In this document: positions 1,986 to 20,587 of the stretch, one piece after another
Layout of the letters: the number at the start of each line of letters is the position of its first letter
Numbering within the stretch: the stretch's first letter is position 1
Origin: a virus
DNA length: 24,032 bases
IMG/VR virus record: IMGVR_UViG_3300045999_003624
Location: 1 to 24,032 of that record
Direction: 5' to 3' (one strand)
Notes under the pieces: generated by a model
Told to the model about the DNA's origin: nothing
Database searches by the model: none
The model's input: the letters and a program-made list of their open reading frames with translations, nothing else
Program-made: the position numbers and the translations under genes

Positions 1986-2891
1986 TCATCCTCTGAAATT
2001 TGTTTCCAAGTGCATGCCGTAGTTGTTGATTCCGTTAGGAACATCAACTCCAGGCTTGTATCTTAACACATTTTTCTTGAAAGGTGAATAGTCCACGTAG
2101 TGGTGCCATCTTCCGTAGCGCCAAACGACTCTGGAGACATCTGGATGCATGTCCACCAGCATCTGCGACTTGTTGATTGTACCCTCAGGATTCAAGGTGC
2201 CATCTCGCCACTTTGACTTGTCCTGTGTACCTTCAGCATGATAAAACTCAGCAGTATTACCACCTTTTACAGTTTGAGTAGCAGCTTTGCCTTGCAAAAA
2301 TGCATTGAATTGTATCGTGCAGTCACCGTCTTTGAGTACCCGCAAGCAAATATCGGTGTCTTCATTATATCGTCCACGCCAACGATGCTTACACTTGTTG
2401 TCAATCAGCAGGGTTGAATATATGCGAGTGTTCTTCACATAGGGTGGATAACTTTGATTCGGCGCGATGAAGAATCGATACTGAAAGCCGGCGATGGGAA
2501 CATTCTCATAGCGATCTACAAAGTCTTCAGCAGCACGAAAGATCGCACCAGACTCTACGCGGATACGCTTGTTCTGATGCAGCCGATAGAAGTCTGAGAT
2601 GTTACAATCCATTACCCAATGCTTTTCTGCGCCAATCTCAATAGAGTGATCCCAGCAAAGATTTCTAGCACGACCAGGACCATCGCCGTGATTAGAAAAT
2701 GGTGCAATGAGTAAGGTCGCGTAGTCACGAAGATTGAAGTTGTCTAGTGCTTTTTCGTATGGTTCCTCATCTTGAGGTTCGATCATGATGTAATGAGGTA
2801 CCTTCATCCTAGACAGTGATCTTGATGTATACATGGACTCTGATCTCCCTTTGGAGATGATATAGACTGGCCATTTTGGATTAGTTGTCAT
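1986..2891 (-). CDS. TET-associated glycosyltransferase (TAGT)-like protein
   Basis: 301 aa. Visible blocks are VYIISKGR near residue 9, PGRARNLCW (72-80), HWVMDCNISDFYRL (91-104), EDFVDRYENVPIAG (122-135), NTRIYS (154-159), WRGRYNEDTDICLRVLKDG (171-189) and KGGNT (209-213). This block order matches, from memory, the TAGT family of phage nucleotide-sugar transferases. Members in some phages sit beside TET/JBP oxygenases and are predicted to add sugars to modified DNA bases. The D-x-N at 95-97 stands where a DxD-type metal site is expected, but here the usual DDN reads DCN. No TET gene is in this window, so the acceptor (DNA or protein) is open. A clear AGGAG lies before the ATG. It is flanked by two probable homing endonuclease genes with gaps of only three bases. 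Confidence 0.72.
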   Translation of the reverse strand: MTTNPKWPVYIISKGRSESMYTSRSLSRMKVPHYIMIEPQDEEPYEKALDNFNLRDYATLLIAPFSNHGDGPGRARNLCWDHSIEIGAEKHWVMDCNISDFYRLHQNKRIRVESGAIFRAAEDFVDRYENVPIAGFQYRFFIAPNQSYPPYVKNTRIYSTLLIDNKCKHRWRGRYNEDTDICLRVLKDGDCTIQFNAFLQGKAATQTVKGGNTAEFYHAEGTQDKSKWRDGTLNPEGTINKSQMLVDMHPDVSRVVWRYGRWHHYVDYSPFKKNVLRYKPGVDVPNGINNYGMHLETNFRG

Positions 2892-2894
2892 AAT

Positions 2895-3497
2895 TTATTC
2901 ACTCCTAGCAAATTCACCATGCAATTCCGATCTCTTATTCAAGATCCATTCTTTTGCAAGGTCTAAATTCTCTTGTGTTATGGAAAAGAAATGCTTGTGG
3001 TATTTTTTACCTAAATGCTGTATTTGTGCATGGATACAGTTCTTCTTCTCATATATTGAGATTCCCTTGTAACCAGATGAGTTGTCTTTTCTGATTTTCT
3101 GATTACAATTGTTTTGTTGTGTTGTTGCTTCTCTCAAATTCTCAATTCTATCATTTAGAGGATTGCAATCAATGTGATCTACCAATCCTGGGCAGTATCC
3201 ATGATGATAAAGAAAAACTATATGATGATTTGGATATCTTTTATCATCAATACACACTCGCCTTCTATTTCTTGATGTATGTATTCTTGAAGCCAATTCA
3301 CCTCTTTTTACTTTACCAAAAGCGGCAGGAGACTTTCTATAGAGAAGACCATCACGATATTCAAACAAACTCCTAACATAGTCTTGAGTTAGATGTTCAT
3401 ACAGATTGAGTTTAGCGTTAGGTATGGGATCGGACGTTCGATCTAGACCAAAAAAATCACATAATGAGTTATGAATAGAATAAATATCTTTAGACAT
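2895..3497 (-). CDS. HNH homing endonuclease with AP2-type DNA-binding domain
   Basis: 200 aa, AT-rich. An HNH nuclease core runs from about residue 88 to 125: NHHIVFLYHHG, then LVDHIDCNPLNDRIENLREA. His91/92 and the DHID histidine at 108, plus Asn115 and Asn120, are candidate catalytic and metal residues. The segment GYKGISIYEKKNCIHAQI (142-159) with GKKYHKHFF is the AP2-type DNA-binding domain found at the C-terminus of many phage HNH homing endonucleases. The ribosome site AGAGG lies eight bases before the ATG. It stands free rather than inside an intron, three bases before the glycosyltransferase gene. This type usually cleaves a conserved site in a related phage lacking the insertion, which would carry neighbours along with it; that role is inferred. 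Confidence 0.88.
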   Translation of the reverse strand: MSKDIYSIHNSLCDFFGLDRTSDPIPNAKLNLYEHLTQDYVRSLFEYRDGLLYRKSPAAFGKVKRGELASRIHTSRNRRRVCIDDKRYPNHHIVFLYHHGYCPGLVDHIDCNPLNDRIENLREATTQQNNCNQKIRKDNSSGYKGISIYEKKNCIHAQIQHLGKKYHKHFFSITQENLDLAKEWILNKRSELHGEFARSE

Positions 3498-3952: not shown

Positions 3953-4399
3953 TTACTCCTCTAATGACAAATGTGCGGTATACACATTACACTTATGTAG
4001 GAAATCTAATCCATCACTGTTGCGATACGGTTCGCTATAAAACACTTTGGATATGCCAGATTGATAGATCATTTTAGCACACTCTAAGCATGGAACACAA
4101 GTCACGAACATGTAAGCACCCTCACCACTTTCTGTAGATCGGGCAAGTTTCAAGATTGCATTGGACTCTGCATGCAGAACCTCTGGTTTTGTTCTCAATA
4201 AAGGCTCAACTTTGTCTGGAGTGTATATCTTATCTTCACACTCGTTTGTCCAGCCAGATGGCATACCATTGTATCCAATGGAAATGATACGGTTATCTTT
4301 TACGATAATCGCACCAACTTTTCGTCTTACGGCTGTGCTAAGATCACCGAAGATACGGGCAGTCTTCATGAATGCCCACATGTACTTCTCTTTCATCAT
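3953..4399 (-). CDS. cd: dCMP (deoxycytidylate) deaminase
   Basis: 148 aa. It converts dCMP to dUMP, feeding dTMP synthesis for phage DNA. The zinc site is visible as HAE (76-78, Glu78 the proton shuttle) and CVPCLEC (101-107, Cys104 and Cys107 as zinc ligands). The N-terminal segment MWAFMKTARIFGDLS with RRKVGAIIVKDNRIISIGYNG is typical of the family, as is the extra loop GMPSGWTNECEDK. It is shorter than T4 Cd (about 190 aa) but contains the full core. The ATG overlaps the end of the upstream kinase by four bases (ATGA), implying translational coupling. This is one of the best-supported calls here. Confidence 0.95.
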   Translation of the reverse strand: MMKEKYMWAFMKTARIFGDLSTAVRRKVGAIIVKDNRIISIGYNGMPSGWTNECEDKIYTPDKVEPLLRTKPEVLHAESNAILKLARSTESGEGAYMFVTCVPCLECAKMIYQSGISKVFYSEPYRNSDGLDFLHKCNVYTAHLSLEE

Positions 4400-5160
4400 A
4401 ATGAATTGATGTCCTTTTCAGTTATTGTATAGACACCTTGATGTTGAACGGAGATGGACGCAAGTTTGTTTGCAAAAGGAATAGCATTTTCTATGCTTCC
4501 TGTAAACAGATAAAAAACTGCTAATGATGCGAGATGAACATCACCTGCGCCAGTCACATCATGCACTTCAACTTTGTCTGTTGGATAGATTTTATCATTC
4601 CATCGTGTTCCTTCTGAACTCAAAGTCACTATGTAATCAGATGGAAGTGATGTTGCTTTAGAAAATTCTGATTCGTTGATTTTGACGTAGCAACCATCAA
4701 ACCTACCCAGGTCTGTTTTTTTGGTATCTATGAAGATCGGTCCTGTGTAAGACTTTCTAATCTCTTCTACAAAGTCATATGTGATAAATCCTTTATCATA
4801 ATCAGATATAACAATAGCATCATACCCATCATTGCAATCTACAATCCTAAGAGGTACCTGATCAGCATCACTGTCAACACGAAGAAGTTGATATCCGCTT
4901 TTGACGTCAATATATCTTGTCTTTACAGACTGATTGCCTCTAATGTGTTTGACTTCACAATTAAGTGCTTCTAGATTTTTGCGTACATTGCTCGACATTC
5001 CTCCACGAAAGTCTTGCTTTCCAGTCGTCTTCAAAACAGGAATGGGCGCTTCAGGTGAAACTCTATCTACAGTTCCATAGATATAGTTGTCTATACAAGT
5101 ATCACCGATTAGCAATACTTTGTATTTTTGCTGTCGAAGAGTAGTCACCAAATCTGTCAT
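4396..5160 (-). CDS. HldE-type sugar (heptose phosphate) kinase, PfkB family
   Basis: 254 aa from the ATG at 5160. I preferred this start over a longer frame beginning at 5220 because GAGG lies nine bases before it and the homology begins at KVLLIGD. Motifs: IGDTCIDNYIYG (18-29), RVSPEAPIPV (33-42), FRGGMSSNV (51-59), ISDYDKG (118-124), IDTKKTD (144-150), and DVTGAGD (201-207) with the catalytic Asp207. These align with the N-terminal kinase half of HldE (RfaE), which phosphorylates D-glycero-D-manno-heptose 7-phosphate. About 30 residues of the usual lid region, between residues 70 and 80, are absent, so the substrate may differ. It overlaps the adenylyltransferase gene by 59 bases and is followed by the dCMP deaminase gene. 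Confidence 0.85.
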   Translation of the reverse strand: MTDLVTTLRQQKYKVLLIGDTCIDNYIYGTVDRVSPEAPIPVLKTTGKQDFRGGMSSNVRKNLEALNCEVKHIRGNQSVKTRYIDVKSGYQLLRVDSDADQVPLRIVDCNDGYDAIVISDYDKGFITYDFVEEIRKSYTGPIFIDTKKTDLGRFDGCYVKINESEFSKATSLPSDYIVTLSSEGTRWNDKIYPTDKVEVHDVTGAGDVHLASLAVFYLFTGSIENAIPFANKLASISVQHQGVYTITEKDINSL

Positions 5161-5500
5161 AGAACACAACCTCATTACAATACTGTTTAGCCAATTTACT
5201 GGTTTCGCGATGATCGCCACCCTTTACGATGATGTCTGGTTTGTACGCAACAAGAATATGAATTAGATCGTCTTCGCTGCCAAACACCTGCACTTCATCA
5301 ACCGCTTTTAGATTCTGCAAAAAAGTCTTTCTCTCATATACATCATTGATCGGTCGATTGTTGCCTTTCAATTCTCTAATACGCTTGTCTGTGTCTATTG
5401 CAACCATCAGATGATCGCCAAGACTCTTTGCATAGTTGAGAATCTTCAGATGCCCAAGATGAAGAACATCAAAAGTTCCGTTCAGAAATATCTTCTTCAC
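5102..5500 (-). CDS. HldE-type nucleotidyltransferase (RfaE2-like)
   Basis: 132 aa, the usual size of a stand-alone cytidylyltransferase-fold domain. GTFDVLHLGH (8-17) is the nucleotide-binding HxGH signature. LKGNNRPIND, IIVKGGDHR and YSSTAKI are equivalents of the LKGDSRPVN, LVKGGDYK and STTNII blocks in the C-terminal half of HldE. That enzyme attaches AMP to heptose 1-phosphate, giving ADP-heptose. A TagD-like glycerol-phosphate cytidylyltransferase is the main alternative, but the LKG..RP and VKGGD blocks favour HldE. The ATG overlaps the stop of the cupin gene by four bases. In bacteria the two activities are often fused; here they are separate, overlapping genes in the order transferase then kinase. 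Confidence 0.87.
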   Translation of the reverse strand: MKKIFLNGTFDVLHLGHLKILNYAKSLGDHLMVAIDTDKRIRELKGNNRPINDVYERKTFLQNLKAVDEVQVFGSEDDLIHILVAYKPDIIVKGGDHRETSKLAKQYCNEVVFYDRFGDYSSTAKIQSIANR

Positions 5501-5856
5501 CTTTGACTGTCTCCTCTAGATACACGATAGTTATCTTCCACACTGTCTGGTGTAGATACTTCAATTATAGTACCTTTCTCTAGACAAGTCAATCTGTGGG
5601 GAAGCAGAGGTGGATTGTGCCAAACATCACCCGTCTTTAGAGTTTTGGTATATGTTGACGCATCTTTAGTATCAATGCACTCTACAATGAATCTGCCCTC
5701 GAGGACATACCAAGTCTCTTCTTTCTCCGCATGAAAGTGCATTGAGAACTTTGCGTCTTGATGGAAGTTTAGAAATTTACTACAATACTTGTCATTGGAC
5801 ACCCAAATCTCTTCACTTCCCCACCCCTTTGAAACTGGTCCTTGGAGTCTAGTCAT
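5497..5856 (-). CDS. Single-domain cupin, probable sugar isomerase/epimerase-like protein
   Basis: 119 aa. The cupin motif is clear: SMHFHAEKEETWYVLEG (residues 38-54) with two His and a Glu for the metal, then GDVWHNPPLLPHRL with the second-motif His. The leading KGWGSEEIWVSNDKY block resembles the cupin part of mannose-6-phosphate isomerases and sugar-binding cupins. Its ATG overlaps the deformylase stop by four bases and its stop overlaps the start of the nucleotidyltransferase. Lying directly before the HldE-type pair, it probably acts on the same sugar. The reaction cannot be told from the sequence; it could also be a non-catalytic sugar-binding protein. Confidence 0.85.
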   Translation of the reverse strand: MTRLQGPVSKGWGSEEIWVSNDKYCSKFLNFHQDAKFSMHFHAEKEETWYVLEGRFIVECIDTKDASTYTKTLKTGDVWHNPPLLPHRLTCLEKGTIIEVSTPDSVEDNYRVSRGDSQR

Positions 5857-6368
5857 TTTACTTTCCTTTTTAGAATCATGCGCTTTCTAGTTGCGCGTTG
5901 AAGTTCAAATGATGATGCACGATTCAAATATGTTATTCCATCTAAGTGATCCAATTCATGCAATGCAACCCTAGCGGACATACCAATGAATTGTTGCGTC
6001 TTTGTTTCGCCGTCGGCAGTCTGAAATCTGATTCTCACTGCATCTGGGCGCTTGACGTTCATGTACAGAAGAGGAAAACTCAAGCATCCTTCTTTCATGC
6101 TGACTTCGTTTTCAGACACACTCACGATCCTAGGATTGAATATTGCGAGAGGTTCTACACTATCGACTCGCATGACGAACACTTTGTACCGAATACCAAC
6201 TTGACAAGCTGACAAACCGAGCCCGTTGTTCTTGATCATACACTCGTTCATCTTGAAGGCTAAGTCTTTTGGATCGTAAGGAAGATTTTCAAAATCAAAG
6301 TCTCTCTGCGTCTGCTTCAAGATTTCACTTGTTTCTGGAATTAGTTCTAGTGCTTTCAATTCAATCAT
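5853..6368 (-). CDS. def: Peptide deformylase
   Basis: 171 aa. It removes the N-formyl group from new proteins, acting at the ribosome. All three signature motifs are present: GLGLSACQVG (49-58), EGCLSFP (93-99, metal ligand Cys95) and HELDH (137-141, metal ligands His137 and His141, catalytic Glu138). The length equals that of bacterial enzymes, so it is probably functional. The basic C-terminal tail (RATRKRMILKRKVK) is unusual and may aid ribosome binding. Phage deformylases are known from marine T4-like phages, where they are thought to maintain host or phage protein maturation during infection. Its start overlaps the gp46 stop by four bases (ATGA). Confidence 0.96.
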   Translation of the reverse strand: MIELKALELIPETSEILKQTQRDFDFENLPYDPKDLAFKMNECMIKNNGLGLSACQVGIRYKVFVMRVDSVEPLAIFNPRIVSVSENEVSMKEGCLSFPLLYMNVKRPDAVRIRFQTADGETKTQQFIGMSARVALHELDHLDGITYLNRASSFELQRATRKRMILKRKVK

Positions 6369-10339: not shown

Positions 10340-10646
10340 TCATCCTTTTAGTTCAATTGTGTAAATTTTGTACTCAAACTTCTCATCGTTGTATATCTTC
10401 ATGCGTTCCATGAAATGATCAAGTGTGAAGTTCTTCTTGGATTTATATGACATATCATCTGCGATATCAAATAGAGTCGCAACATCTTTATTACTTCCAA
10501 GTCTCAATCCACGCCCAATTGATTGAAGTGTTCTGATCTTACTTTTGCTAGGTGAAGCAAAGATGACATTGTGAAGATTGCGAATATTTATTCCAGTGGA
10601 AAAACGTGCCGTATGAAGCAATTATAATTGCGCCACACGCCTCCTT
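10340..10646 (-). pseudogene. uvsW: C-terminal exon of uvsW, separated by an insertion and frameshifted
   Basis: The start of this piece reads KEACGAIIIASYGTF in one frame. The rest, STGINIRNLHNVIFASPSKS and IRTLQSIGRGLR (helicase motifs V and VI), is in the next frame. The shift falls in a run of five T at 10600-10604, where four would keep the frame. T4 UvsW reads VASYGVFSTGI here, so the expected product is clear. In the motif V/VI frame a TAA precedes everything except a TTG at 10621, so no credible start exists without a frame change. With one T fewer, an ATG at 10667 would open a 109-aa product to 10340. The end (KFEYKIYTIELKG) matches the natural UvsW C-terminus. Confidence 0.85.
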
Positions 10647-11528
10647 TTCAATTTTAGTTGGTTTCATTTTTTAGTTTCCTATTTCTCTTTCTACATTGCA
10701 ACATATAGTCTCTCCACACAGGATCTTTCCATTTCTCTTTTAGATATAGACTATTACTTCCGTGATTTCTATGTTTCATTTTATTTCTAAAATCATTTTC
10801 TTTCCATTTATCTTTCAGTTTTTTTGAGATTTCATCTTTTTTCTCATAGTTGATATTTTTCATCTTTTCAGAAAATTCACTCAACTCATCTTGAGTTTTG
10901 TTTTTCCACATTTCCAATGTGTTTTTTCTTAATCTCTCAATTTCTAGTGGATTTTCAGAATAGTATCTCTTCATATTGTCAGATTTTATTTTTTTTCTCT
11001 CTTCTGTCCAATACTCAAGCATTTTAATAGATTTTAGTTTTTTTATCAATTCATTGTTTTCTGGAGAAATTTCTCCACTTCCATTTTGTAGATTCAAAAA
11101 GTCATCTCTACGTGATGCGTCTAATCTTCTTAAAACTCTAGATTCCCATTTGATAGCATCACAAGAATTACTAAATCTTTTTCTGATTTGTATTATATCC
11201 GGATCACCTATAATTTTTCTCATCTGCTTTACTAGTTTTGATGATGTGAAATATGTTTTCCACAAATCATTGTCTGTGCATCCTTCTTTATATCTAACGC
11301 CATAATACCACAATTTGTGATTTGACCAACCAATAAGATACGTATATGAATTCATGTTGACTCCTGTTGTCTAATATTTTTATTTAGTATCCAACAGTCA
11401 TCAATATCATCATTTTCTGTAATATATTTTGCTTTTTTTGTTGTCCCATCGGTTAATAATACTAATTCATTCTCTTTACATGAGATTCTTGTGTCGCCAA
11501 AATTCAAAACTACGTTATCAACTATTTC
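10647..11528 (-). mobile_element. Homing-endonuclease insertion splitting uvsW
   Basis: About 880 bp separates the two UvsW parts. By homology the left junction follows RRITE or RRITEE (about 11528), and the right junction precedes KEACGAIII (about 10646). The segment is far richer in A+T than the flanks (one 60-base line has about 22% GC). It encodes a 57-residue extension read through from uvsW, then a GIY-YIG endonuclease. Only about 10 bases lie between the endonuclease stop and the second exon. A group I intron normally needs its P7-P9 core there, so a self-splicing intron is not supported. Confidence 0.75.
10654..11355 (-). CDS. GIY-YIG homing endonuclease inside uvsW
   Basis: 233 aa. 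The nuclease domain is at the N-terminus: YLIGW (6-10), then YYGVRY (17-22) with Arg21, LWKTYFTSSK (31-40), and the metal-binding Glu71 in IKWESRVLRR. The W/Y-F-T-S-S block is typical of T4-like phage GIY-YIG endonucleases. The remainder (100-233) is very rich in Lys, Glu and Asn with repeated W-K and Y-x-E elements, probably a modular DNA-contacting region. The ATG overlaps the TGA of the extended uvsW frame and has AGGAG five bases upstream, so it is translated by coupling to uvsW. It is expected to cut uvsW alleles lacking the insert. Confidence 0.88.
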   Translation of the reverse strand: MNSYTYLIGWSNHKLWYYGVRYKEGCTDNDLWKTYFTSSKLVKQMRKIIGDPDIIQIRKRFSNSCDAIKWESRVLRRLDASRRDDFLNLQNGSGEISPENNELIKKLKSIKMLEYWTEERKKIKSDNMKRYYSENPLEIERLRKNTLEMWKNKTQDELSEFSEKMKNINYEKKDEISKKLKDKWKENDFRNKMKHRNHGSNSLYLKEKWKDPVWRDYMLQCRKRNRKLKNETN

Positions 11529-12683
11529 TTCCGTGATGCGTCTGACTTCTTCACGTTCTTCGCCATCTACTCCACCATGCACAAAAAACAATCGTCTGTC
11601 TTCTATAGACTCATCAATCATCTTGTGTAGAACTTTACCATGCTTCTCAACGAGTTGATAGAGAACAAGTGTGTTCCCTTTTAGACTGACTGCAAGATTT
11701 CTGATGAACTTGTTTCGTGCAACGGAAGATACAAGGTAGTCAATCTCTTCTTGATACTTATTGTTCTTGTTTTCAGCGCAGATTGCAGCATCGTGCTTTA
11801 GAACAAGTGCTTTGATTCTGAACTTAGCAAGACTGCCTGCATCAATGAGTTCTTTTGTTGTCGTGATTTGCTTGACTCTACCGAATAGACCTTCAAGAAC
11901 TAGTTTGTGTGTTTGTGTTCCATCTAGTGTGCCAGTGAGACCATATCTATATGCGCAATTTGTCATTTTTGACAATATAGATGTTAGTGACTGCGCTTTG
12001 AACAAGTGTGCTTCGTCACCAATGACAATATCAAACTGAGAAAACCATTCCTTCGGTTGTTTGTAAATGGACTGCCAAGTTGATATGATAACTTGCTTAT
12101 TAGTAGTCTTCGTTGCTCCTGCAACGATTTTGTGTACATTTTCGTTGCTATCCCACCCATAGTCTTCGAAGTCTTTTGACAATTGAGACACTAGAGAGAT
12201 CGTCGGTACAATGATGAGTGTCTTACAGTTCAAATACCTCGCGATGAGATAGATGATGAGTGACTTGCCAGATGCAGTTGGTGACAACAGAAGACCTCTA
12301 CGCTTTCTGATTGCATAGACAAACGCTTTCATCTGATAGTCTCTTGGCATGAATGGTATGCCCAATGTATCAATGAATGTCATTGCTTCGTCATCAGAGA
12401 ACTCTTCATCTGCGTCTACACTACTATCGTTCTCACATGTGTATTCACGTTCTTTGCAAAAACTCTCTACATATGGAGCAAGCCCAGAATAGATTGTGTG
12501 GTTTGAACGATTGAATAATCTTATGCGACCATCCCAGGTCTTATTGCGAAAAGATGGATGAAATTTATAATTTGGAACAAAAAATGTAAAGTATTCACTT
12601 AGTTCCATTGCAATGCCTTTGTCGCACTGGACTCTTATGTGTACTTCATCTATCTTTGAGATTGTGATGTCAGTTGACGCCAT
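11352..12683 (-). CDS. uvsW: UvsW DNA/RNA helicase, N-terminal part with a 57-aa foreign extension
   Basis: 443 aa from the ATG at 12683 (MASTDITISK), chosen because T4 UvsW homology begins there; an ATG at 12710 would add nine residues and also lacks a clear ribosome site. UvsW unwinds branched DNA and R-loops and shuts down origin-dependent replication. Residues 1-110 are the DNA-binding domain (KTWDGRIRLF). RecA domain 1 has SPTASGKS (134-141), DEAH (223-226) and LTGTLDG (249-255). Domain 2 starts at about 285 and reaches LFFVHGGVDGEEREEVRRITEE (365-386), then stops short of motif V. Residues 387-443 are unrelated to UvsW. The missing arginine-finger motif VI is needed for ATP hydrolysis in this superfamily, so this piece alone should be inactive. 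It overlaps uvsY by 14 bases. Confidence 0.93.
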   Translation of the reverse strand: MASTDITISKIDEVHIRVQCDKGIAMELSEYFTFFVPNYKFHPSFRNKTWDGRIRLFNRSNHTIYSGLAPYVESFCKEREYTCENDSSVDADEEFSDDEAMTFIDTLGIPFMPRDYQMKAFVYAIRKRRGLLLSPTASGKSLIIYLIARYLNCKTLIIVPTISLVSQLSKDFEDYGWDSNENVHKIVAGATKTTNKQVIISTWQSIYKQPKEWFSQFDIVIGDEAHLFKAQSLTSILSKMTNCAYRYGLTGTLDGTQTHKLVLEGLFGRVKQITTTKELIDAGSLAKFRIKALVLKHDAAICAENKNNKYQEEIDYLVSSVARNKFIRNLAVSLKGNTLVLYQLVEKHGKVLHKMIDESIEDRRLFFVHGGVDGEEREEVRRITEEIVDNVVLNFGDTRISCKENELVLLTDGTTKKAKYITENDDIDDCWILNKNIRQQEST

Positions 12684-13107
12684 TGGTAAAACGCTGCCAA
12701 TCAATTGCATTTTTTATCTGATAGTTTCTCTGATTGAGATTCTTCAACACTTCTTCTAGAAAATCAATTTTTTCTTTCTGTGCTACGATTCTCATGTTTA
12801 CATCAACGATGTCTGCATCGGAGTCTACATACATGTCAACCTCATTCTTCATGAGTTTCTTGACAAAAGGCTCCCATCCCGCTTCTTCAAGTTCTTCGCG
12901 AGACATTCGCCCATTGTAGTATTCATACTTCTTGAGGAATGTTGCCTTGCTCTTGAATTCATAAGCACGAAGTCTTTGTCTCTCATCAAAGTAAATCTTC
13001 ATGAACTTACTATGGAGTTGAGGAATCTTCAGTGATTCAGCCCCAAGTTCTGTTGAATCTATTCCTGCGTCTTTTCGCCATTCCTCTGATATCTGGTCTA
13101 ATGTCAT
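12670..13107 (-). CDS. uvsY: UvsY recombination mediator
   Basis: 145 aa, near T4 UvsY (137). It loads the UvsX recombinase on gp32-coated single-stranded DNA. Shared features are the N-terminal LDQISEEWRKDAGIDSTEL (compare T4 LQEELKKDVFIDSTKL), the middle block LKKYEYYNGRMSREEL (T4 LDYYSGRG), and a mostly helical layout. The C-terminal segment is mostly helical. Its place directly before uvsW and its size support the call. The ATG follows GAGGA and a sigma70-type promoter at 13140-13168. The uvsX gene is not in the window. Confidence 0.92.
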   Translation of the reverse strand: MTLDQISEEWRKDAGIDSTELGAESLKIPQLHSKFMKIYFDERQRLRAYEFKSKATFLKKYEYYNGRMSREELEEAGWEPFVKKLMKNEVDMYVDSDADIVDVNMRIVAQKEKIDFLEEVLKNLNQRNYQIKNAIDWQRFTNGVN

Positions 13108-18724: not shown

Positions 18725-20587
18725 CTAATTCAAAGCAAGAAACTCGCCCTTTGTCAAATATTCATCTTGCACGGTTGCTGCAATCGCCGTGTTGTCTGCA
18801 AGATTGAATGGATCTTTTGCAAGAATAGTCAATTCACCTAAAGTATCAGTATCAGACGCTAACAGTGCGATTGAATATATTCCATCACCCAAATCTGTAA
18901 CTGTTCTATTGACAGTGGTGAATGGACTTCCTTCTTTACTTATACTGATCTCTGGCTGCAGCCCAGATACAGATGATATATGATCAAATGATGCTCTGAA
19001 AAACACACTCACATTTCTAGGATAATTTCTTCTGATTATATGTGCGGTGTTCAGCGGTAGAGTTGGTTTTCCAAATCTTGCAGCAATGGAATCTACAAAA
19101 TCTGTTGCGTTTGTAGACTCACTAACGCTTCTATTAAATGCTAAAGATGCCGTTATTGAATCACTTGAAGAAACAGGAACTTCTGAAAAATCAATGAAAA
19201 TATCAGCAACAATCGACTCTGATGTAGATGTGCTTTCATTTAGTGTTGCGTTTGCAGTTAATTGACTTGACGATACTTCTGTAGACGATGTTGATTCAGA
19301 TACGCTTGATGCTGCGGTGACAGTAGAATTTTCACTTGAAGTTATTACACTAGATTCATCTGACGATGCAAGTGCCACAAAAGAAGCATTTGCAACATCT
19401 GTAACCGATGCAGATGTTTCATTCAATACTCTTGTTGATAAAATTGAGGCAATCTCTGATGCAGATGTTGCGACAGAGGTTTCACTGAGACTTGATACTA
19501 CATTTGCGCTAGAAAGTTCTGACGAATCCGTTGAAGTCGTTTCACTTAGAGTACTTACGAATTCAGCATTAGTTGATTCTGTAGATGCTGTTGAATTTGT
19601 TTCACTTAGTGTGCTTACGAATTCAGCATTAGAAGATTCTGTAGAAGTGACAGAATTTGTTTCGGAAACTGTTTCTGATTGAACGCCACCAGAAGATTCA
19701 GTTGAAGACGCTGATACGGTTTCACTTAGGAAAGAAGTGAATACAGCATTAGTTGATTCTGTAGATGCTGTTGAATTTGTTTCACTTAGTGTGCTTACGA
19801 ATTCAGCATTAGAAGATTCGGAAGCAGTTGCTGATAGTTCTGGTTCACTTAGCGTGCTTACGAATTCAGCATTAGCAGATTCTGTAGCAGTTACAGAATT
19901 TGTTTCGGAAACTGTTTCTAATGAAGAACCATCAGAAGATTCTGTTGTTGATGTCGCAACAGAATCTTCAGATAGAGTTACAGCAAATACAGCATTAGCA
20001 GATTCTGTTGATGATGCTGATAGTTCTGGTTCACTTAGGGTAGAAGTGAATTCAGCATTAGTTGATTCTGTTGATGTTGTGGAATTCGTTTCACTTAGCG
20101 TGCTTAAGAATACAGCATTAGCAGATTCTGTTGATGATATAGAATTTGTTTCGGAAACTGTTTCTAATGAAGAACCACCAAAAGATTCTGTTGTTGATGT
20201 CGCAACAGAATCTTCAGATAGAGTTACAGCAAATACAGCATTCGCGGATTCGGTCTCTGATGTAGATGTAGATTCCGATACATTCAGAGTTGATGTTACA
20301 TCAGCAGATTCGGTCTCTGATGTTGATGTCGTTTCACTTAGGGTGCTTACGAATTCAGCATTAGCTGACTCAGTGGCAGTTGCTGATAGTTCTTGTTCAC
20401 TTGAACTGATGTCAAATACAACATTAGCGACACTGGAATCAGAAGTCGCTAAACTTGGTTCACTTAGGGTGCTTACAAATACAACATTAGCGACACTGGA
20501 ATCAGAAGTCGCTAAACTGATCTCAGATACATTGCCTACTACTATCCCCGCCTCGCCGGCAGAACTCAACAGGGTTAATAGTGACAT
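18725..20587 (-). CDS. Ser/Thr-rich repeat virion protein with C-terminal beta-sandwich, 620 aa
   Basis: After a short N-terminus (MSLLTLLSSAGEAG), residues about 20-505 are about 24 tandem units of roughly 20 residues. Their consensus is V-S-x-L-S-E-T-x-S-x-x-S-T-E-S-x-N-A-x-F. They hold almost no basic or aromatic residues apart from the closing Phe. Units near the N-terminus are closest to one another; later ones drift. Residues 506-620 differ: LPLNTAHIIRRNYPRNVSVF, ISKEGSPFTTVNRTVTDLGDGIYSI and a closing EYLTKGEFLAL look like an Ig/fibronectin-like adhesion domain. It resembles extended fibre or surface proteins; Ser/Thr-rich arrays are also glycosylation targets. AGGA lies six bases before the ATG. 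The exact virion location is unknown. Confidence 0.85.
   Translation of the reverse strand: MSLLTLLSSAGEAGIVVGNVSEISLATSDSSVANVVFVSTLSEPSLATSDSSVANVVFDISSSEQELSATATESANAEFVSTLSETTSTSETESADVTSTLNVSESTSTSETESANAVFAVTLSEDSVATSTTESFGGSSLETVSETNSISSTESANAVFLSTLSETNSTTSTESTNAEFTSTLSEPELSASSTESANAVFAVTLSEDSVATSTTESSDGSSLETVSETNSVTATESANAEFVSTLSEPELSATASESSNAEFVSTLSETNSTASTESTNAVFTSFLSETVSASSTESSGGVQSETVSETNSVTSTESSNAEFVSTLSETNSTASTESTNAEFVSTLSETTSTDSSELSSANVVSSLSETSVATSASEIASILSTRVLNETSASVTDVANASFVALASSDESSVITSSENSTVTAASSVSESTSSTEVSSSQLTANATLNESTSTSESIVADIFIDFSEVPVSSSDSITASLAFNRSVSESTNATDFVDSIAARFGKPTLPLNTAHIIRRNYPRNVSVFFRASFDHISSVSGLQPEISISKEGSPFTTVNRTVTDLGDGIYSIALLASDTDTLGELTILAKDPFNLADNTAIAATVQDEYLTKGEFLALN
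19073..20530 (-). repeat. Tandem approx. 60-bp coding repeats with larger duplications
   Basis: The array has a 60-bp base period (20 codons). A 76-bp stretch is identical at 19564-19639 and 19744-19819, offset 180 bp (three units). A block starting at 19901 recurs at 20147, offset 246 bp, with few changes over about 100 bp. A 42-bp stretch from about 20414 recurs exactly about 72 bp on. Offsets are multiples of three, so copy-number change keeps the frame. Confidence 0.88.

Follow-up and report, generated by a model that had tools for sequence, protein, structure and literature searches.

A cupin encoded with HldA- and HldC-like proteins in a T4-like phage is a probable non-homologous replacement for GmhA

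The kinase and nucleotidyltransferase activities of ADP-heptose synthesis reside in HldE (RfaE) of Gram-negative bacteria, or in separate HldA and HldC proteins. The first committed enzyme of heptose synthesis is GmhA, a protein of the SIS fold. GmhA has been studied as an antibacterial target (PMC5387315, PMC11056994), and ADP-heptose is reported to activate mammalian innate immunity (PMC10269868). The closest described viral system is the 'LPS' cassette of cyanophages such as P-SSM2, S-SSM7 and S-CAM1 (T4-GCs 304, 305, 306, 307 and 308), a cluster of transferase, kinase, short HAD-like protein, cupin and epimerase genes in which transferase, kinase and cupin are usually adjacent and overlapping. 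A comparison of cyanophage genomes published in 2010 found T4-GCs 304, 305, 307 and 308, together with three others, to be shared by three phages, without being able to tell whether these clusters function (PMC3037559).

The DNA analysed here (the window) comprises positions 1 to 24,032 of IMG/VR record IMGVR_UViG_3300045999_003624, 24,032 nucleotides in all, and its virus is represented by this fragment only. The fragment is T4-like, encoding gp46/gp47-type recombination nuclease subunits, UvsW, UvsY and a late sigma factor, as well as a head maturation protease, a scaffold and a major head protein. A DNA-level search of annotated phages matched short stretches only; this phage therefore has no close described relative. 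Searches of the window gave neither a tRNA nor, at gathering score, any Rfam RNA.

Homologues of the cyanophage transferase, kinase and cupin lie inside the T4-like recombination operon of the fragment, in the minus-strand order deformylase, cupin, transferase, kinase, dCMP deaminase (Table 1). Like the cyanophage genes they are clustered on one strand, but the window has these three genes only; the HAD-like protein (T4-GC 306) and the HldD-type epimerase (T4-GC 308) of the cyanophage cassette are both absent. The three reading frames had been placed between the peptide deformylase and dCMP deaminase genes in an original prediction made from the sequence, and this was confirmed, with the kinase start taken as the ATG at 5160 to give 254 residues. 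The predicted 59-base overlap and the ATGA overlaps at the two outer junctions (deformylase/cupin, 5853-5856; kinase/deaminase, 4396-4399) were also found. The cupin/transferase overlap, predicted to be ATGA as well, is instead GTGA (5497-5500), because the start codon of the transferase is GTG. The transferase/kinase overlap is 56 or 59 bases long in most relatives, and this conservation of length is therefore not due to chance. In two related viral loci (L008 and L009) a deformylase gene is also found upstream, separated from the cupin by at least two ORFs, and dCMP deaminase likewise follows directly after the kinase.

Table 1. Features of the sugar gene cluster and its surroundings in the window
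Feature	Position	Strand	Evidence
Cupin of 119 aa, proposed to do the work of GmhA as a non-homologous phosphoheptose isomerase	5497..5856	-	Cupin_2 E 5.5e-9
HldC-like nucleotidyltransferase, 132 aa, GTG start, HLGH motif	5102..5500	-	TIGR02199 E 7.1e-31; CTP_transf_like
Short HldA-like PfkB kinase, 254 aa	4396..5160	-	TIGR02198 E 2.9e-38; phrog_8133 E 6.6e-88
Coding overlap transferase/kinase, 59 bases	5102..5160	-	sequence
Peptide deformylase, upstream neighbour	5853..6368	-	Pep_deformylase E 2.7e-36
dCMP deaminase, downstream neighbour	3953..4399	-	phrog_174 E 8.2e-50
TAGT (TET-associated glycosyltransferase)	1986-2891	-	PF20691 E 5.9e-41

An alignment search of IMG/VR gave 551 candidate stretches encoding a relative of the kinase, of which the best 80 were examined; the kinase as a single-protein query against viral contigs gave no matches. 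These 80 contigs, six phage records and the window make up 87 loci. A profile match to the transferase was obtained at 83 of the 87, to the cupin at 79 and to an HldD-type epimerase at 64; GmhB and the cyanophage HAD-like protein were detected at 12 and 11 respectively. Seven loci have the order cupin, gmhB, nucleotidyltransferase, kinase, hldD, and the cupin is the sole additional gene that nearly all of the viral cassettes share. The epimerases that were scanned had ADP-glyceromanno-heptose 6-epimerase as their best match (TIGR02197, E 1e-54 to 1e-66), the phosphatase scanned in related loci matched GmhB, and GT9 heptosyltransferase-like matches were obtained in 10 of 52 virus records. The HldD, GmhB and GT9-like genes of related loci therefore point to ADP-heptose and not to just any sugar. 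In the annotated phage collection, kinase and cupin relatives were found nearly exclusively in marine T4-like cyanophages and marine single-cell viruses. Heptose is the best reading of the sugar, because the same gene set recurs in cyanophages and uncultured viruses, most often with an HldD-type epimerase; these epimerases strengthen the earlier proposal of an HldE-type kinase and transferase tied to ADP-heptose or a related sugar.

Profile matches to TIGR02198 (HldA) and TIGR02199 (HldC) uphold the view that the two halves of HldE are present but unfused. The kinase scored 131.8 bits with TIGR02198, for which the curated NCBIfam cut-off is 345, and the transferase scored 107 bits with TIGR02199, its best NCBIfam model, for which the curated cut-off is 181.5. 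Both scores are well under the family cut-offs, and the proteins are therefore named HldA-like and HldC-like. The HLGH of the transferase is an instance of the HxGH motif of the nucleotidyltransferase fold. The AlphaFold model of the kinase (pLDDT 88.8) was nearest to Burkholderia HldA (4e84; Z 26.4, rmsd 2.3 over 245 residues). The top four rows of the structure search were all HldA, with Z scores of 23.4-26.4, and ribokinase and other PfkB kinases scored 22.8 or below. The catalytic motifs are retained, GAGD, NxxE, the aspartate and lysines of DTKK, and PEAP being invariant in an alignment of 23 relatives.

The kinase, with 254 residues against a 315-position profile, is shortened in several places and is about 60 residues shorter than its counterpart in HldE. 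Kinases were short, 243-291 residues, in all 87 viral loci, which include the best 80 of the 551 IMG/VR stretches, and short length is therefore a lineage trait. The suggestion that about 30 residues of the lid are missing was inaccurate, since all the lid strands are present in the AlphaFold model, in which the substrate region is still flanked by its four long strands (14-34, 41-55, 69-85 and 91-97). Judged by eye, the main gap instead removes a helix/strand unit of the core beside the lid, and spares the lid itself.

No SIS_2 match (the GmhA domain) was obtained in the window or in 51 related virus records, including five whole cyanophage genome records; in a control search, E. coli and others matched. 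The 24-kb fragment also gave no match to HAD-IIIA/GmhB or to HldD. The earlier statement that neither GmhA nor GmhB is visible thus holds for SIS and HAD-IIIA proteins in the fragment, but it overlooked the cupin as the likely isomerase. The closest relative for which a long contig is available is L009 (143 kb). It shares the three genes and gave no SIS or HAD-IIIA match, and its epimerase matches are weak and lie inside another sugar cluster. The 'phosphoheptose isomerase' annotation of T4-GC 306 (L002:6749-7072, L003:6716-7060, L005:7670-8005, L007:7272-7610) was considered as a possible GmhA and rejected, as the protein has a DxDGTI HAD-like signature and no Pfam match. T4-GC 306 may be the GmhB-type phosphatase of the cyanophage cassette, and T4-GC 307, the cupin annotated as 'cysteine dioxygenase', is the likelier isomerase of the two.

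The window cupin belongs to the cupin superfamily, scoring 36 bits with Cupin_2 for a cut-off of 27.2. The metal motif HxH(x4)E...H was kept in 93 of 93 cupins tested, both phage and cellular. The AlphaFold model of the window cupin (pLDDT 93.6) consists of beta strands apart from a single short helix, and its structural matches are cupins; this barrel is unrelated to the SIS fold, and the protein is therefore no member of the GmhA family. With the cupin sugar isomerases (type II phosphomannose, D-lyxose and L-ribose isomerases) it shares the common cupin fold, the metal ligands and a KGWGxE-like N terminus. However, the profile similarity to these enzymes is weak (21 bits with the type II phosphomannose isomerase family PF01050, for a cut-off of 23.6), and the window cupin belongs to a separate subfamily that is linked to HldA and HldC. 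The profile relatives of solved structure include two aldose-ketose isomerases, acting on D-lyxose and L-ribose, and also oxalate decarboxylases. In the structure search CapF was the top match, and archaeal phosphomannose isomerases were among the matches. Neighbours in sequence and fold are thus mixed (oxalate decarboxylase, CapF, quercetinase, isomerases); a fold search cannot separate isomerases from other cupins, and it was therefore not used as proof.

The window cupin falls in a large phage clade, apart from a cellular operon clade and a cyanophage clade; in each of these clades the cupin is associated with HldA- and HldC-type genes. Its identity to the operon cupins is mostly 37-43%. 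In two viruses (L065 and L069) the cupin is fused to an HldC-like protein. Members of the family also stand alone, in genomes with no heptose genes nearby, and the role of the family may therefore be broader.

Cellular genomes were scanned with the cupin profile. An operon of the form cupin-HldD-HldA-GmhB-HldC, with no GmhA, was found in archaea (L107, L110, L112, L113, L115, L116, L118, L122 and L127) and in L100, which is filed as Nomurabacteria; in some of these loci genes are fused or GmhB was undetected. Such an operon covers the remaining pathway steps in addition to the cupin. We then scored the neighbours of HldA, taking as HldA a match with E below 1e-60 and as neighbour a gene within 5 kb, in 145 archaeal genomes of the order of L113. 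HldA was present in 42 of these. Its neighbour is the cupin in 11 and SIS in 26; no genome has the two together beside HldA, and five have neither (hypergeometric probability 1e-6, relatedness ignored). Among 333 genomes of Patescibacteria, the phylum of L100, 16 have HldA; the cupin is adjacent or fused in six, SIS is the neighbour in nine, and there were none with both and one with neither (8.7e-4 by a hypergeometric calculation). Over the two groups, SIS GmhA lies beside HldA in 35 genomes and the cupin in 17, and the two are never found together.

The cupin thus fills the GmhA slot beside HldA in archaea and Patescibacteria, and it does so in gene fusions as well. HldA-SIS fusions (G191, G100, G147) are paralleled by HldA-cupin fusions (G178, G174), and a SIS-HldA fusion (G351) by cupin-HldA fusions (G393, G415, G528), indicating that cupin and SIS occupy the same slot. 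In a tree of 55 HldA sequences, one of them a second HldA from the same cupin cluster of G178, the neighbour label changes between cupin and SIS 11 times, and strongly supported branches force at least six of these changes. The pattern is thus accounted for by recurrent exchange of one gene for the other, and not by relatedness. There are two counter-examples. In G083, a genome with the cupin, a SIS gene lies elsewhere. At a single locus, in an Acidimicrobiaceae MAG (L126:7461-12343), cupin and SIS were seen close together: kinase, transferase and cupin genes are accompanied there by a SIS-like ORF, another transferase and an HldD-type gene, which may represent two parallel heptose routes.

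On these grounds the cupin family is likely to be a second, non-homologous sedoheptulose 7-phosphate isomerase. It would have taken the place of GmhA several times over in DPANN archaea and Patescibacteria, and would be standard in the ADP-heptose cassettes of tailed phages, that of the window among them. The 'missing GmhA' is therefore likely to be present in disguise. We infer that the window cupin would have the same function, somewhat less firmly than for the cellular clade. The three genes of the window probably form a compact phage segment of the ADP-heptose pathway. The cupin would isomerise sedoheptulose 7-phosphate in place of GmhA, and the kinase, by its family and structure, would phosphorylate O-1 to yield heptose 1,7-bisphosphate. 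A phosphatase encoded outside the fragment, by phage or host, is assumed to remove the 7-phosphate, and the HldC-like protein would act as nucleotidyltransferase, putatively of the adenylyl and not the cytidylyl type. As the fragment has no HldD, the product might remain D,D-configured if no epimerase is encoded elsewhere or by the host. The acceptor may be a host surface glycan, the virion or another target.

A host might supply GmhA to the same pathway, GmhA being common in bacteria, and the cupin would then act at another point, for instance as a sugar epimerase, in tailoring or as a metal-binding scaffold. Cupins do include sugar C3/C5 epimerases, such as those for Campylobacter capsular heptose (PMC7949155), and CapF, the top structural match, is an enzyme of capsule sugar synthesis. 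We consider this unlikely, because it leaves unexplained the mutual exclusion of cupin and SIS beside HldA in 52 cellular genomes, and the fusion positions that they share. That the sugar is another aldose phosphate, activated by the same types of enzyme, and not glycero-manno-heptose, appears quite improbable. Such a sugar would fit the sub-threshold NCBIfam scores of kinase and transferase, the cytidylyltransferases among the relatives of the transferase, and a window with neither HldD nor GmhB; it is at odds with the HldD-type epimerases of the viral loci, which match the ADP-heptose enzyme best where scanned, and with a kinase whose structure is closer to HldA than to ribokinase or other PfkB kinases.

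The original prediction also noted a glycosyltransferase of a DNA-modification type less than 2 kb downstream. This is a genuine TAGT, about 1.5 kb away with dCMP deaminase in between, and 53% identical to genes of Aeromonas T4-like phages. Use of the nucleotide sugar by TAGT to modify phage DNA nevertheless seems very unlikely. TAGT lies near the cassette in this window only, being found at none of the 86 related cassette loci, and among annotated phages its carriers (Aeromonas, Vibrio, Tenacibaculum and other phages) differ from the cyanophages that carry the cassette. In addition, the fragment has no recognised gene for a hydroxymethylase or TET. DNA glycosylation by way of the nearby enzyme thus found no support, and it was dropped because TAGT is unlinked to the cassette in relatives. 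'Stuffer DNA' has been raised as an explanation of cyanophage LPS genes (PMC3037559), but it is hardly credible that the three genes of the window are filler or decaying. Their frames are intact, and the gene set and overlap are conserved over many viruses. Loss of active-site residues on alignment, which had been named as evidence that would count against the proposed enzymes, was not seen, the motifs being invariant in 23 kinases and 34 cupins.

The gene set is a further example of a known phage cassette, in which the cupin as a likely substitute for GmhA is the new part; no description of a cupin phosphoheptose isomerase was found in the published, non-subscription papers searched. If the assignment is true, many phages, and small-genome archaea and bacteria which seemingly have no GmhA, gain a working start to the pathway. 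For phage 'LPS' cassettes, whose function is so far unexplained, it would offer an ADP-heptose route open to testing, and it would assign a role to a common cupin that phage databases label 'cysteine dioxygenase'.

Several other features were observed in these sequences. DPANN archaea (L113:3831-7125; also L110, L112, L116, L118, L122 and L127) have an apparently near-complete ADP-heptose operon, which is unexpected there, as DPANN cells are thought to have no LPS. A second sugar cluster is found in the nearest relative of the window, on the 143-kb contig (L159:4203-11014). Its genes encode a DegT-like aminotransferase, a ThDP-type enzyme and two proteins like NAD-dependent epimerases/dehydratases, together with a protein of the GDIIWALP type, which is GT9-like by eye and has no Pfam match. 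In the window, uvsW (10340-12710, minus strand) is split: the N-terminal helicase part is encoded by one ORF (11352-12710) and the C-terminal part by another (10340-10621), with an ORF of unassigned family between them (10654-11355, weak match to phrog_37840). An insertion of the intron or intein type may account for the break; the Rfam search gave no intron at gathering score. A free-standing HNH endonuclease gene (2895-3497, minus strand; phrog_99, E 1.1e-49) lies between the deaminase region and the glycosyltransferase. Positions 18725-20587 (minus strand) encode a 620-residue protein of SE/ST-rich repeats, opposite which the other strand is open over 287 codons.
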